From an uncultured bacterium (GTDB lineage Bacteria > Muiribacteriota > Ozemobacteria > Ozemobacterales > Ozemobacteraceae), in assembly GCA_900317935.1 (NCBI GenBank), contig ONIU01000013.1, positions 1 through 64,000 of the forward strand: a DNA stretch of 64,000 nt, given 5' to 3'. The notes under the pieces were generated by a model. That model was not told the DNA's origin. It saw nothing but the letters and a program-made list of their open reading frames with translations, and made no database searches. Position numbers and translations under genes: made by a program. Below are positions 1 to 42,450 of the stretch, in pieces. The stretch's first letter is position 1; each line of letters starts with the position of its first letter.

Positions 1-641
1 CCAATGTTGTCGAGAGGGCGAAAAAAGCAGGAGTTACAGAGTTTATTGTTCCTGGAATATGTGGTTTTCCAAATAGATTAGAAGAACTGAGAAAATTTTT
101 TGAAATTAAAATCTGTTGGGGTGTTTACCCTGAATATGCCGATAATGAAGCTTTAATTGAAAAAGAGTTTCAAAATTTGAAAAATTCAAAAATAGATATA
201 TATGCAATTGGTGAATGCGGGCTTGATAAGCGTTTCTCTAACATAGAAAAGCAGATAGAACTTTTCAGAAAACAGATTGTTATTGCTTTACAGATGAATA
301 AACTGCTGATTATTCATTTGGTAGGCTGCTATCAGAAGGCTTTTGAAATATTAAAAGAATATGATCCTCGACCAGAGTTTATTTTACATTCCTGGAGCGG
401 CTCTGCTCAAATGGCAAAAGAATTTATAAAACTTGGCGGCAAGATATCGTTATCGGCTGGTATTCTTAAGAGTCCCAAAAAACTTAAAGAAATTTTTGAT
501 TCAATTCCTTCTGAAAAAATATTGTATGAAACAGATGCTCCGGACCAGAAACCAGATTTTGTAAACACAGAGCAAAACGAACCAGCCAATCTGCCCAAAA
601 TCGTAGAGGTTATGTTAGGGATTAAGGAATTGAGATATTGA
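1..641 (+). CDS. TatD family metal-dependent hydrolase (5' end outside window)
   Basis: The reading frame is open from the left edge (codons in phase with base 3), so the N-terminus, including the usual HxH metal motif, is missing. An internal ATG at 177 is not the real start. Visible TatD features are the GECGLD glutamate, the IIHLVG histidine, the LHSWSG histidine and the ETDAP aspartate near the C-terminus, in family order. TatD proteins are cytoplasmic Mg-dependent DNases of the amidohydrolase TIM-barrel fold, acting in DNA repair or quality control, and some are tRNA-processing hydrolases. The C-terminus (KELRY, stop 639-641) runs directly into the heptamer repeat tract, so the last few codons may derive from repeat sequence. 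Family assignment is firm; substrate is not known. Confidence 0.88.
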   Translation, partial: NVVERAKKAGVTEFIVPGICGFPNRLEELRKFFEIKICWGVYPEYADNEALIEKEFQNLKNSKIDIYAIGECGLDKRFSNIEKQIELFRKQIVIALQMNKLLIIHLVGCYQKAFEILKEYDPRPEFILHSWSGSAQMAKEFIKLGGKISLSAGILKSPKKLKEIFDSIPSEKILYETDAPDQKPDFVNTEQNEPANLPKIVEVMLGIKELRY

Positions 642-731
642 GATATAAGTTATAAGACTATAACTTGAGATACAAGTTTAAAGAATTCTAACTTAAATCT
701 TATATCTTACGTCTTATATCTTATATCTTAA
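626..731. repeat. Inverted heptamer-repeat element A
   Basis: The left half carries heptamers of the AAGNTNN type; the right half carries reverse-complement units of the CTTATAT type. A spacer around 670-690 separates the halves. The tract fills the gap between the tatD stop and the pilT stop (convergent genes) and could fold into an imperfect hairpin. It belongs to the same family as the tracts at 5968, 11082, 41875 and 42370. Confidence 0.75.
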
Positions 732-4500: not shown

Positions 4501-4701
4501 ACCATGGTAATTGTCTGCGGACGGTAGACGTGAAACCTTCTATTCTCCGCACAAGGCTCGTTCTCTCAAAGATTATTCGAAGGCAGAAATTTACAGAGAC
4601 CGCGGAGGAGAATAAGGTTGAGCAAGCGATAGTCCGCTATGTTTTAGTAATGTTAGAAGAGTTTGGAAGGGTTATATGCCTAGCTCCACTTGGTCCTAAA
4701 A
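4501..4701. other. Intergenic region with a long imperfect hairpin
   Basis: No gene is convincing here. It is richer in G+C than its surroundings. Arms at 4534-4550 and 4602-4619 pair as AACCTT / AAGGTT, ATT / AAT and CTCCGC / GCGGAG, with a small CT/GAG internal loop and a roughly 50-nt apical region. A smaller stem GTCT/AGAC lies at 4513-4529. It could be an unidentified structured RNA or a palindromic repeat. No match to RNase P, SRP, tmRNA or 6S signatures was recognised. Confidence 0.4.
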
Positions 4702-5967: not shown

Positions 5968-6092
5968 TTGAGATGTAAGATTGAAGTTACAAGTTTCAAG
6001 TTACAAGTTACAAGATTTATGATTTTAGCATTTTGTATCTTATGTCTCAATTTTTGGTCTTGTATCTTAAATCTTATATCTTATATCTTCTC
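5968..6092. repeat. Inverted heptamer-repeat element B
   Basis: Six forward heptamers of the AAGTTAC/AAGATTG type (from about 5976) are followed by a ~20-nt spacer. Reverse units of the CTTATAT type then run up to the stop codon region of the next gene at 6094. The phrase CAATTTTTGGTCTTGTAT inside the right arm recurs at 42410-42440. It lies upstream of the FecR gene and downstream of the 6094-8256 gene. Confidence 0.78.
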
Positions 6093-8256: not shown

Positions 8257-8571
8257 AGAACTCCCCAGTAAAAACACATTATAACAATTATATCATATAG
8301 TTTTTGAGTTTACTATGGTTCTAGCTCAGGGCAAACGCAAACTTTTCCTATTATTGATGGTATTTGCAAGAATTCATTTTTATAATATTGTAACGTCTTC
8401 CACTGATTGCGTAGCAATCAGCCCCCACCGTCTTGCCTACGCAATGAAAAAATTTGTTCGAAAACTCATCATAAAAATTTCCCAAAAATATCTTTAAATT
8501 AAAAAATTGTACAATTTAAACCAAAATGATATAATAGCTTCACAAAACTTATCGCAGGATATTTTAAACTC
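8257..8571. other. Divergent intergenic region with palindromic repeat
   Basis: This 315-nt spacer separates divergent genes. At 8403-8421 a perfect 8-bp hairpin (CTGATTGC, loop GTA, GCAATCAG) is followed by CCCCCACCG. Its core ATTGCGTAGCAAT also occurs, reverse-complemented, at 61477-61489 inside hrpB, where CAGCCCCC likewise follows. The rest is A+T-rich promoter DNA; no small ORF is convincing. Confidence 0.6.
8507..8535 (+). promoter_or_regulatory. Sigma-70 promoter of the J-domain/TPR/CSD gene
   Basis: TTGTAC (8507-8512), 17-nt spacer, TATAAT (8530-8535), 36 nt before the ATG at 8572. A weak AGGA ribosome-binding site lies between. Confidence 0.75.
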
Positions 8572-10627: not shown

Positions 10628-11077
10628 TTATTTGAAAGAGTCTTCTATAATTTGTGCGGCATCCATAATAACTTTTAGGCATGGACGGGTTGCATAATAT
10701 TCTTTAGTTCTTTCCGAAGCCATGGGAAATTCTTTTGTATTGCCTATTTTTAATCGTTCACGGCATATAATGGTTCCGTGAATCTTTTTGAATTTTTCAA
10801 GTAACTCCTGTTCTTTAAGGTAACAGGCTTTTTTTGCGCTTTGGTCACCTGTAGTTGCACCACATTCAAGTCCGCAGACTAAGGTCATTCCGCTTACAGC
10901 ACCGCATACTTCTCTTGTTCCACCAAAACCAGCACCAAAAGCACCTGCTAATCGGAGGGCCATTTCTTCTGAAATGCCGTATTTGTCTGCAAAAGCGGCA
11001 AATACGGCTTGACAACAATTAAACCCTTTTAAAAACAATTCTTTTGATTTTTCGACTCTGTCTATTTTGGGTTCCAT
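10628..11077 (-). CDS. C_GCAxxG_C_C family protein (putative redox)
   Basis: The protein carries the conserved pattern of the C_GCAxxG_C_C (split-Soret cytochrome-like) family: GFNCCQAV near residue 20, GFGGTREVCGAVSGM near 60, and later cysteines in ACYLKEQ and TIICRERL. It is 149 aa, the normal size. The family is common in anaerobes and is thought to be a redox or metal-binding protein of unknown reaction. No signal peptide, so cytoplasmic. It lies downstream of a nitroreductase on the same strand, separated by a heptamer element, and a functional link is possible but unproven. Confidence 0.88.
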   Translation of the reverse strand: MEPKIDRVEKSKELFLKGFNCCQAVFAAFADKYGISEEMALRLAGAFGAGFGGTREVCGAVSGMTLVCGLECGATTGDQSAKKACYLKEQELLEKFKKIHGTIICRERLKIGNTKEFPMASERTKEYYATRPCLKVIMDAAQIIEDSFK

Positions 11078-11081
11078 GATT

Positions 11082-11216
11082 TTGTTTGAGATTTAAGATA
11101 TAAGATCAAAGCTTGAGTTGTAAGACATAAGATACAAGACCAAAGATGGAGACACAAGAATTTTTATAACTTAAATCTTACATCTTGTATCTTGCAACTT
11201 GTGTCTTGTAACTTAC
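11082..11216. repeat. Inverted heptamer-repeat element C
   Basis: Forward heptamers (AAGACAT, AAGATAC, AAGACCA, AAGATGG) are followed by a centre near 11160-11172. Then come at least six reverse units (CTTACAT, CTTGTAT, CTTGCAA, CTTGTGT) up to the nitroreductase stop codon. It is the clearest two-armed copy in the window and could form a hairpin of more than 40 bp with mismatches. It lies between tandem minus-strand genes. Confidence 0.8.
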
Positions 11217-11846
11217 TCAATACTTATTCCAATGGATTCTTTCTGGTTTCCATTTATCTTTTGGCTGGTCGGTTCCATCAGGATAACCTACAAGAATAAC
11301 GCACAAAGGAACAACATTGTCTGGAAGAGCAAATTTTTCTTTTACTGTTTTTATTCTGTCTTCTCCAGGGTATATTCCTGTCCATACAGCACCAAGTCCA
11401 AGGCTTTCTACAGCTAATAGAAGGTTTTCTGTAGCAGCAGAACAGTCTTGATCCCAATAAGCCCAGCTTCTTTCGTTTCCTATTGTTTTATCACCACATA
11501 CAACAACTAGAGCAGAACATTTGTTAATCATATCTGCCTGACGATTGCCTTCTGCATATTTGGCTTTTAGAGCTTTGTCAGTTACGACAAGAAACTGCCA
11601 AGGCTGAGCATTAATAGCTGTCGGAGCAGCCATAGCAGCTTTAATTATTGTTTCAAGCTGTTCTTTGGTAACTTCTTTTTCAATATAATTACGAACACTT
11701 TTTCTTTGGTGAATAGTTTTTAGTGTTTCGTTCTGATAAGTTATTTTTGAACCTTTGTCTGTTGTTTTTGCTGGTTCTTCAGCATAAACAGAATTGCTTA
11801 ATAATAAAGCTGCAATCAAAGCAGTAAAAAGATTAGTCTTTTTCAT
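11217..11846 (-). CDS. Exported nitroreductase family protein
   Basis: MKKTNLFTALIAALLLSNSVYA is a typical Sec signal peptide. The mature domain has nitroreductase hallmarks: HQRKSVRNY (FMN phosphate contact), AAMAAPTAINAQPWQF, and the C-terminal GLGAVWTGIYPGE and VPLCVILVGYPDG segments with terminal KPERIHWNKY. Family members are FMN-dependent dimeric NAD(P)H oxidoreductases in the cytoplasm. A Sec signal on one is unusual because FMN normally binds inside the cell. SD AAGGAG lies 7 nt upstream of ATG 11846. It may be a periplasmic flavoprotein redox enzyme; the electron donor there is unclear. Confidence 0.87.
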   Translation of the reverse strand: MKKTNLFTALIAALLLSNSVYAEEPAKTTDKGSKITYQNETLKTIHQRKSVRNYIEKEVTKEQLETIIKAAMAAPTAINAQPWQFLVVTDKALKAKYAEGNRQADMINKCSALVVVCGDKTIGNERSWAYWDQDCSAATENLLLAVESLGLGAVWTGIYPGEDRIKTVKEKFALPDNVVPLCVILVGYPDGTDQPKDKWKPERIHWNKY

Positions 11847-39217: not shown

Positions 39218-39257
39218 CTAATCATTTCTGTTATTGAATATTTGAAGGAGTTTCTTG

Positions 39258-41120
39258 GTGTCTGAAGAATTGTCTATAAAACATCAGAGTCTGATTTATA
39301 AGGCTCAGAAAAGTATTCTTGCTCATGGCAAGGATGTTAAAGCTATTCTTGAAGTTTTAGGCAAACTCTCTTTAGACCTTTTCAATAAAGAAGGTTTTTC
39401 TGTTCTTTCTTATGACTTTGCTGCCCAGATGACCAGACCAATATATAAACAGGGCTTCAAAGAAGAAACCTTAAATCATCTTGCTGAAGAATTCACTAAA
39501 CTAAAAGTTGAAAAGAAACCCATAGTCCGCGAACAGATTGTTGACCCAGACGCAGGCAAAATTAATCTTGTTCCTATTGGTGATGAAGAAGATATTTATG
39601 GACAGATTATTTTTGCAGATTCTGAAGATGCAAATAAAGTTGCTGTAACAGAATTTATAGAACTTGCAACAGCATCATTAGGCACATTCCTTGGCGTTGG
39701 TCTTTTACAGCTTCATCTTGAAGAAATGGCTGCTCTTATTGAGGTCAGCCATGTTGTAAGTTCTACTCTTGATTTAAGAGAACTGCTTACAAAGATTATG
39801 AAGACAGCTACCAAGGTTATGAGATGCGAAACTTCAACTGTATATCTTGTAGATGAAGCAACAAATGAATTGTATTTCAGTATAGTTCAAGGCGATTCAA
39901 ATGTAGGCGCTAAACTGAAAGAAATTCGTTTGCCTATGGGAACAGGTTTGGCAGGTTGGTGTGCTCAGAATAACGCTCCTGTAATGGTTCCTGATACAGA
40001 TAAAGACCCTCGTTTCTTTAAGGGAGCTGATAAAAAATCTGGTTTTGTTACAAGATCAATGATTTGTGTTCCAATGTGCTTAAAAGAAAAAGTCATTGGT
40101 GTTCTTCAGGTTTTAAATAGAACCGGAGACATTCCATTCAACGATCATGACCTTGAAACATTAAAAGCAGTTGCTACTCAGGCTGTATCAGCTATTGAAA
40201 ACGCAAGACTTTACGAAAATATTCAGAAGATTTATCTTTCTACAATTGAAGTTTTGGCTACAGCAATTGATGCTAAAGACCCATATACAAGAGGGCATTC
40301 TCGCCGTGTTACACTTTATTCTGTTGCAATTGCAGAACAGTTGGGGCTTTCTCCAAAAGAAATCGAAAACATTAGATATGCCGGTTTGCTTCATGACGTA
40401 GGTAAGATTGGTATTTCTGATAGTATCATCAGAAAACCAGGTCGTCTTACAGACGAAGAATACGGCATAATCAAGACTCACCCCGCTATTGGTGCAAGAA
40501 TATTAAGACCGGTAGAATTTTTAGCAGACAAAATTCCAGGTGTTCTTCACCACCACGAATATTATGATGGCCGCGGATATCCTGATCATCTGTCTGGTGA
40601 AGACATACCTTTAGCTGGTCGCATAATCTGTGTTGCAGACTGTTTCGACGCAATGACGACAAATCGTCCTTACCGCAAAGGTTTAAGCGTAAATACAGTT
40701 ATTGGTGAACTTAATAAGCTTTCTGGTAAACAGTTTGACCCTGTTTGTGTTAAAGCTTTCTTAAGTGCTTTTGAAGCTAAGATTTCTCAGTATTTTGAAC
40801 CTATTGAAGGTTCGGAAGATAATGATATGGCTCTTAAACCTGAAGAAATGGGAACTACTGAAGAACCAGAAAAGATTCAGAAAGATAAGCAGCCTTATCC
40901 TCCAATAAGCTGTGATAGCGACAAGAAGGAAGAAAAGAAACTGGAATCTCAGCCTTATCCTCCGATAAATTGTGACAGCGACAAGAAGGAAGAAAAAAAG
41001 CTTGAGTCTCAGCCCTATCCTCCGATAAACTGTGACAGCGACAAGAAGGAAGAAAAGAAGCTTGAATCTCAGCCCTATCCTCCGATAAACTGTGACAGCG
41101 ATAAAAAAGATAACAAATAA
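39258..41120 (+). CDS. GAF / HD-GYP cyclic-dinucleotide phosphodiesterase with C-terminal tandem repeats
   Basis: GTG 39258 is chosen because GAAGGAG ends 7 nt upstream; TTG 39255 is too close. The N-terminal ~150 residues are a degenerate GAF-like region. A clear GAF follows (about 165-310: VMRCETSTVYLVDEA, AGWCAQNNAPVMVPD, VLQVLNRTGD). Then comes an HD-GYP domain with HSRRVTLYS, LLHDVGKIG, HHEYYDGRGYP and the DAMTTNRPYR signature, all catalytic residues present. It should hydrolyse c-di-GMP or a related dinucleotide. The last ~77 residues are four near-identical 20-residue repeats QPYPPINCDSDKKEEKKLES, each with one Cys. It is likely translated with the preceding YmdB-like gene. Confidence 0.92.
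   Translation: MSEELSIKHQSLIYKAQKSILAHGKDVKAILEVLGKLSLDLFNKEGFSVLSYDFAAQMTRPIYKQGFKEETLNHLAEEFTKLKVEKKPIVREQIVDPDAGKINLVPIGDEEDIYGQIIFADSEDANKVAVTEFIELATASLGTFLGVGLLQLHLEEMAALIEVSHVVSSTLDLRELLTKIMKTATKVMRCETSTVYLVDEATNELYFSIVQGDSNVGAKLKEIRLPMGTGLAGWCAQNNAPVMVPDTDKDPRFFKGADKKSGFVTRSMICVPMCLKEKVIGVLQVLNRTGDIPFNDHDLETLKAVATQAVSAIENARLYENIQKIYLSTIEVLATAIDAKDPYTRGHSRRVTLYSVAIAEQLGLSPKEIENIRYAGLLHDVGKIGISDSIIRKPGRLTDEEYGIIKTHPAIGARILRPVEFLADKIPGVLHHHEYYDGRGYPDHLSGEDIPLAGRIICVADCFDAMTTNRPYRKGLSVNTVIGELNKLSGKQFDPVCVKAFLSAFEAKISQYFEPIEGSEDNDMALKPEEMGTTEEPEKIQKDKQPYPPISCDSDKKEEKKLESQPYPPINCDSDKKEEKKLESQPYPPINCDSDKKEEKKLESQPYPPINCDSDKKDNK
40890..41117 (+). repeat. 60-bp tandem coding repeat (3.8 copies)
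   Basis: Units start at 40890, 40950, 41010 and 41070. The period is exactly 60 bp, with a few silent or single-base differences and one Ser-to-Asn change after unit 1. Being a multiple of 3 it stays in frame and encodes the acidic/basic Pro-Tyr-Pro-Pro repeat at the end of the HD-GYP protein. Confidence 0.95.
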
Positions 41121-41874: not shown

Positions 41875-41982
41875 TAGATATAAGATATAAGATATAAGAT
41901 ATAAGATACAAGATGCAAGTTACAAGTTACAAGATGCAAGATATAAGTTACAAGTTACAAGATGTGAGATATAAGATACAAG
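41875..41982 (+). repeat. Heptamer-repeat array D (forward arm)
   Basis: Fifteen contiguous 7-bp units of consensus AAG(A/T)T(A/G)(T/C) plus a partial sixteenth, without interruption. It is the purest array in the window. It lies just upstream of the small membrane protein gene. The matching reverse arm (E) is 390 bp away, at 42370. Confidence 0.92.
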
Positions 41983-42193
41983 TTTAGTGGTAAGTCACTG
42001 CTACAACAGATGTTGGCGGCGTAAAATACCCTCTTTTTTAAAGAGGGATGTCAAGTTCATAGAACCTGACAGGGAGATTTTTCATAATAATACAGTCTTC
42101 GGACTCAACTTTCTACTGCTTTGCAAACTTCTCGAAAATCCCCTTGTCTGCTATCGCAGACATTCCCCTTTGAGAAAGGGGATATTTAAAGAA

Positions 42194-42236
42194 CCCCTCA
42201 GTCACTTCGTGACAGCTCTCCTCAAGGAGAGCCTTT
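42194..42236 (+). repeat. CAGTCACTWCGTGACAG repeat, intergenic copy
   Basis: CAGTCACTTCGTGACAGCT is followed by a CTCCTCAAGGAGAG hairpin. The same block occurs twice inside hrpB (about 60829-60845 and 61606-61621), where it is translated as QSLRDSSP. This repeat type is widespread in gut-associated bacteria. Confidence 0.8.
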
Positions 42237-42239
42237 AGG

Positions 42240-42345
42240 ACAACACTCAAAACCCTTCCAACCCTTCCAACTCTTCCAACAATTACCACAGTGAAACGTC
42301 TCACAACGAAGTGTCCCACAGCGAAGCGTAACACTTCCTACCCTT
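42240..42345 (-). repeat. Intergenic repeat family 2, copy 2 (reverse)
   Basis: Read on the minus strand it gives GTTACGCTTCGCTGTGGGAC, ACTTCGTTGTGAGACGTTTC, ACTGTGGTAATTGTTGG and three 9-mers of the GGTTGGAAG type, matching 4406-4500 block by block. Confidence 0.75.
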
Positions 42346-42369
42346 ATAAAACCTTCGAACTTAGAACTG

Positions 42370-42450
42370 TTTCAATATATAAGATACAAGAAATCTTATA
42401 TCTCCATCTTTGGTCTTGTATCTCAATTTTTGGTCTTATATCTTAAAAAT
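42370..42450. repeat. Heptamer-repeat array E (mainly reverse arm)
   Basis: Begins with two forward units, then reverse units (CTTATAT, CTTTGGT, CTTGTAT, CTTATAT). It includes the phrase CAATTTTTGGTCTT also seen in element B. It may be the displaced right half of array D. Confidence 0.75.

Follow-up and report, generated by a model that had tools for sequence, protein, structure and literature searches.

Dispersed imperfect palindromes of about 80–160 bp, such as ERIC/RU, REP-BIME/REPIN and MITE-type elements, are intergenic and non-coding, and the STRR heptanucleotides of heterocystous cyanobacteria are 7-bp intergenic tandem runs that are not known to rest on a hairpin. Many bacteria carry heptamer arrays in excess, and there is no consensus on how these arise. 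The GGGAATC arrays of Xanthomonas and the heptamer arrays of Nostoc follow a strand rule near genes, lying on the non-coding strand upstream and on the coding strand downstream; they occupy the same gap in relatives with variable length and have been discussed as G-quadruplexes (Rehm et al. 2015, PMC4692102). In Xanthomonas, 70–75 convergent GGGAATC pairs form inverted repeats (PMC4692102). The TAACTGA direct repeats of Beggiatoaceae, Cyanobacteria, and Bacteroidetes have an invariant unit, are nearly always one-armed, and are located just upstream of starts (MacGregor 2015, PMC4679880).

We analyzed a window of 64,000 nt (positions 1 to 64,000 of contig ONIU01000013.1, genome GCA_900317935.1, Ozemobacteraceae), whose genome is designated G000. 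Its arrays of AAGWTRY resemble the GGGAATC / GGGGAYT arrays, which have two to 26 copies, in being intergenic, non-coding 7-bp tandem units, and they share with Xanthomonas the convergent pairing and the positional rule. However, the AAGWTRY unit is A/T-rich and has no G-tract of three or more, so no quadruplex is expected, and the family belongs to a different phylum, has a second arm built of a 20-bp unit, and forms a defined element of 78 bp. Like the TAACTGA repeats, which show 7-nt indels between strains (PMC4679880), it is an intergenic heptamer family with 7-nt indels, but its units are variable, it is two-armed, and it shows no preference for starts. It differs from the cyanobacterial STRR in its unrelated unit, its phylum, and its hairpin basis. 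As in the ERIC, REP, and MITE palindromes, the Riflebacteria element is dispersed, intergenic, and imperfectly palindromic; unlike them, it has an expandable 7-bp arm, and we know of no sequence in common between it and ERIC/RU, REP-BIME/REPIN or MITEs. A preliminary description of the window had not recognised the AAG(A/T)T pattern and the inverted two-arm heptamer layout as a known element; such a layout is known from the 70–75 convergent pairs of Xanthomonas (PMC4692102). The family looks like dispersed DNA of a known general kind, in a form that looks unreported in the open-access literature, also for Riflebacteria.

Structure of the element and its copies in the window

The five AAGWTRY tracts named in the preliminary description were confirmed in place by direct reading and by TRF, which reported periods of 7 or multiples of 7 at 692–730, 5984–6014, 6058–6089, 11089–11214, and 41876–41982. 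Their number is far above chance, as the window holds four clusters of at least five heptamer units, compared with 0.02 per first-order Markov copy. The second building block, missed previously, is the 20-bp unit AAGACCAAARATKGAGAYAY, which is not a heptamer and makes the other arm. This unit is present in tracts B, C, and E and in a decayed version in A, and it matched the genome 114 times at ≤2 mismatches, compared with 13 for the control.

Alignment of well-formed copies gave a basic element of 78 bp composed of two 20-bp units, an apex, and typically four heptamers, with the consensus AAGACCAAAAATTGAGATAC AAGACCAAAGATGGAGACAC AAGAATTCTT GTAACTT GAATCTT ATAACTT GTAACTT and a self-complementary apex (AAGAWTTCTT). 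The mean column identity of 14 well-formed copies was 88% over the 78 bp, and their flanks were unrelated. With up to 14 mismatches allowed in 51 bp, the 51-bp consensus gave 38 matches, and a loose apex search returned mostly noise. In many copies the element runs on at its outer ends into inverted, T-rich arms, GTAGTTGGTTTTTGTTG ... AACAATAACTACC (also given as GTAGTTGGTTTTTGTTG...AACAATAACTAC). Copies A, B, and C had been described as a forward array, a spacer, and a reverse array; the two-armed plan stands, but the arms are usually unlike, one made of heptamers and one of 20-bp units.

Copy A (638–731, no strand assigned) is an imperfect hairpin between the convergent TatD DNase and T2SSE ATPase genes, with a left arm at 638–678, in which the decayed 20-bp unit lies at 654–670, a loop at 679–689, and a heptamer arm at 690–731. 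Its RNA fold was −28.8 kcal/mol (z −4.8), and 0 of 200 shuffles folded as well. Copy B (5969–6083, no strand assigned) has its heptamer arm at 5984–6018, a loop at ~6020–6025, and the other arm at 6026–6083, where one 20-bp core unit is matched on the minus strand at 6045–6061 (fold −31.7 kcal/mol, z −5.0). Copy C (11114–11215, no strand assigned) comprises a core arm, an apex, and a heptamer arm of 7 units (11166–11214); the core lies at 11136–11152 on the plus strand, the second 20-bp unit and the apex are present, and the fold was −36.5 kcal/mol (z −4.5). This copy fills a gap bounded on one side by a gene start (gene ending at 11077) and on the other by a stop codon (gene at 11217).

Copies D and E form the opposite ends of a single composite (41876–42445, no strand assigned) with inward-facing outer arms. 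Copy D (41876–41982, plus strand) is the left outer end, a one-armed array of 15 heptamers (15.3 copies by TRF). Copy E (42376–42446, minus strand) has a canonical core arm and a short heptamer arm, with core units at 42401–42417 and 42421–42437 on the minus strand and 3 mismatches to the 51-bp core-and-apex family consensus. As read from the sequence, other repeat families lie in the middle, including a 9-bp AACCCTTCC array at 42251–42280 and a GAA-loop mini-hairpin array at ~42290–42330. B, C, and the D-E composite each sit between same-strand genes, and A sits between convergent genes.

The long imperfect hairpin proposed earlier was confirmed for A, B, C, and E, which fold on either strand with z −3.2 to −5.0 relative to shuffled sequence (for E, z −3.2 and −3.7, one value per strand), whereas D alone gave no stable fold (z +0.3). 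Across the tested copies, z ranged from −3.2 to −5.7, and 94% of the cells at consensus pairs were standard pairs.

Range, array length, and turnover

The 4.55-Mb genome G000 is a draft of 371 contigs. It contains 167 exact (AAGWTRY)x3 triples on the two strands (103 + 64), compared with 0 for a reversed control pattern, and 34 distinct places have more than four exact units. In 679 kb of this genome, 37 clusters of at least five units were found against 0 expected from a first-order Markov model; the sampled regions were picked for carrying arrays or core matches, and such densities are not genome averages. A relaxed scan yielded arrays of 3–26 units, 3 of 85 lying inside called ORFs, with genes taken as longest-ORF calls.

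The three congeners (G001–G003) carry 7–18 exact triples each, and no heptamer triples were found in the other 36 of the 40 Candidatus Riflebacteria genomes examined. Triples number about 37 per Mb in G000 and 1–7 per Mb in the congeners, and the AAGTTAC unit type occurs in triples only in G000 among the places listed. Exact matches to the core in the four genomes of the genus (32, 10, 10, and 5) are less uneven than the heptamer triples. When 84,980 species were searched, the 24-bp core pattern was matched only in Candidatus Riflebacteria MAGs (Reindeer_2_mag_167, RGIG1619, and Rumen_Coassembly_mag_344), which all come from ruminants. Because triples occur in four genomes of one genus and core counts are more even, sequence comparison indicates that the element is a trait of this genus of rumen Candidatus Riflebacteria, with heptamer arrays expanded in the species of G000. 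The element provides markers specific to the genus for uncultured Riflebacteria of the rumen. The earlier view of a real repeat family therefore holds, given the triples, the empty control, and the copies in congeners, some at the same gap; the tracts are neither confined to this DNA nor an assembly error.

Copies that have heptamers directly after the apex most often have 4, and the longer ones have 5, 6, 6, 7, 10, 13, and 13; copy C is the one with 7. The dnaK-dnaJ hairpin is common to G000, G002, and G003, and the same arm in G002 is one heptamer longer, a 7-bp indel relative to G000. In one G003 copy, a 20-bp unit is duplicated. The graded unit numbers and the 7-bp indel between species indicate that the long arrays would be slippage expansions of the heptamer arm, since the series is what slipped-strand replication would leave.

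Comparison of positions with the relatives showed that some copies share a gene gap between species and that others are absent from the matching gap. At gap A, the right arm is retained in G002, where several other repeats sit mid-element beside it, and is missing in G001 and G003. Neither G001 nor G003 has copy B at the corresponding gene edges, and gap C in G001 holds a different short hairpin with GAGAGAT-like units. The D-E repeats are missing in G003, where the matching gap is ~100 bp and repeat-free, and in the visible part of the matching G001 gap. The dnaK-dnaJ copy and the copy upstream of the gene after L045:15530 are retained in two or three species. From these filled and empty matching gaps and the copies kept across species, it appears that copies come and go, that some are old, and that other repeats insert within them; the flanks of the relatives are ~75–85% identical, too diverged to define exact insertion ends or a target duplication. 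G002 contigs end inside heptamer elements, and the elements may break assemblies, as some congener contigs end within them.

No partner transposase was found linked to the element when the only Y1 (REP-associated type) transposase found in the genome was examined. This gene (L059:18300-19150, G000:C156) lies among palindromes of its own, CCTAGGGCG...CGCCCTAGG, which differ from the heptamer element, and the element was rejected as the REP of the resident Y1 transposase.

Arm direction, gene context, and origin

The sampled regions contained 362 intergenic gaps of 60 bp or more. Units of both directions were present in 29 of them, and the arms faced inward in 28 of these 29, with AAG read in the left arm and CTT in the right. 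For long arrays ≤30 bp from a gene, the AAG reading pointed away from that gene in 23 of 25 cases (p 2e-5), which is the rule known from Xanthomonas. The rule held at 15 of 16 stops and 8 of 9 starts; the stop side is partly confounded, as AAG-sense arrays supply TAA stop codons and the other sense stays open, whereas the start side is not. Genome-wide purine asymmetry between genes was rejected as the source, as array-free gaps show none or are slightly opposite. A strand bias relative to tandem genes, strong at first (17/19), weakened to 33/50 with more data, and the inward rule describes the arrays better. Concerted evolution of the two arms was also rejected, as the two arms within an element were no more alike than arms taken from separate elements (permutation p 0.99), which is expected if arms differ by design. 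Convergent, tandem, and divergent gaps were used in about proportion to the available intergenic DNA, in agreement with the preliminary argument that simple termination does not explain all copies.

The element is probably a passenger, a non-autonomous extragenic palindrome of MITE/REP-like type that was dispersed and then had its arms lengthened by slippage. This class was assigned because of the common consensus in unrelated flanks, the hairpin form, the filled and empty gaps, and the context following intergenic length. We do not assign the element to any named MITE or REP family, because neither a linked transposase nor a clean target-site duplication emerged. Near-identical copies in unrelated flanks are observed, and their dispersal to intergenic sites would have involved a transposase or recombination agent. 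After landing, the near-repeated heptamer arm would gain and lose 7-bp steps by slipped-strand replication, probably aided by the hairpin on single-stranded DNA. Slippage would lead to long arrays, and core-arm decay or mid-element insertions would lead to one-armed arrays. Transcripts crossing a filled gap would carry the hairpin, with no selected regulatory role evident, and the element is most likely tolerated between genes.

The persistence of some copies between species could also mean function. A selected RNA element, in which the hairpin in transcripts is a terminator, a 3'-end stabiliser, or an intercistronic processing or attenuation site, would account for the strong folds on both strands, for the hairpins at dnaK-dnaJ and L045:15446, which stay intact in two or three further species, and for the classical terminators at gap A in congeners that have no copy there. 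However, the gene contexts are unselective and no T-run follows a G+C-rich stem, so a terminator role was rejected. The covariation score was above most shuffles (reached by 5 of 500), but both-sided changes occurred in 2 of 19 consensus pairs compared with 1.8 expected from shuffles, a signal too weak to prove a selected RNA, and the arms of an element matched each other no better than those of other elements. The element had no Rfam match, and an Rfam scan of the window returned a tRNA only. Because of the weak covariation, the unselective context, and the lack of an Rfam match, the passenger reading is preferred, and a selected RNA, placed second, is unlikely.

Birth in place by slippage, as a plain intergenic STRR/SSR with a secondary two-arm layout, fits the 7-bp units and indels and the lineage-specific excess in G000 over its congeners, including the AAGTTAC triples. 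Nevertheless, dozens of loci cannot independently have come by one 78-bp consensus that includes a non-heptamer arm, and the two-armed gaps are convergent in all but one case; this origin is improbable and largely refuted for core-bearing copies, and it would hold for some coreless arrays only if these never carried a core. An array bound by a sequence-specific protein, or one acting post-transcriptionally at start codons as proposed for the Beggiatoaceae TAACTGA repeats (PMC4679880), would suit the common strand of 8 of 9 start-proximal long arrays and the well-kept unit, but is very unlikely, since arrays are commoner at stop codons, in the opposite sense, and matching congener gaps lack them.

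A wider reading is offered tentatively, and with more doubt than confidence: convergent inward-facing heptamer arrays in Xanthomonas and Riflebacteria may recur through one process, slippage growth of the heptamer arm of a hairpin, rather than through quadruplex function, with the Riflebacteria intermediates showing array birth. The G-poor Riflebacteria case speaks against quadruplexes being the general cause of such arrays. The same rule and convergent pairing with A/T-rich units, together with a parent hairpin and expansion stages, make this origin hypothesis testable by strain comparison.

Other repeats in the same DNA

Several further repeats were observed. A separate dispersed element of ~120 bp at 4517–4638 of the window has dozens of copies at 85–94% identity in G001–G003 and is far better conserved than the heptamer family. 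Another dispersed repeat (8327–8445) is common to G001 and G003. Inside the D-E composite, the dispersed repeat CCCTCTTTAAAGAGGG ... CCCCTTTGAGAAAGGGG (42025–42200) has many copies at 78–88% identity in all three congeners.

Mini-hairpin chains with variable, self-matching stems (GATTGCTAACGCAATC, GGCAGGTAAAGCTGCC, CGAGGCTAAAGCCTC) and constant TGTGRGAC linkers occur at 42290–42330 of the window, at L038:17250-17400, in L052, and in L054 near 8460-8540. They face a second arm of GCGAAGC-type mini-hairpins with GTCCCAC joints, giving a large branched palindrome. The stems seem to vary with compensation, and the branched palindrome is possibly more unusual than the heptamers.

Periodic intergenic repeats, namely the 9-bp GAAGGGTTG, the 7-bp GTGATAA/GGTGGTAAGTGATGGGTG, and the 7-bp TTGAGAA, often follow AAG arrays in the same gap, at 42251–42280 of the window, at L035:19600-19730, and in L037, L066, and L067. 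Within the ORF at 39255–41120, a 60-bp tandem repeat of 3.5 copies (40890–41101) encodes a repetitive protein tail.
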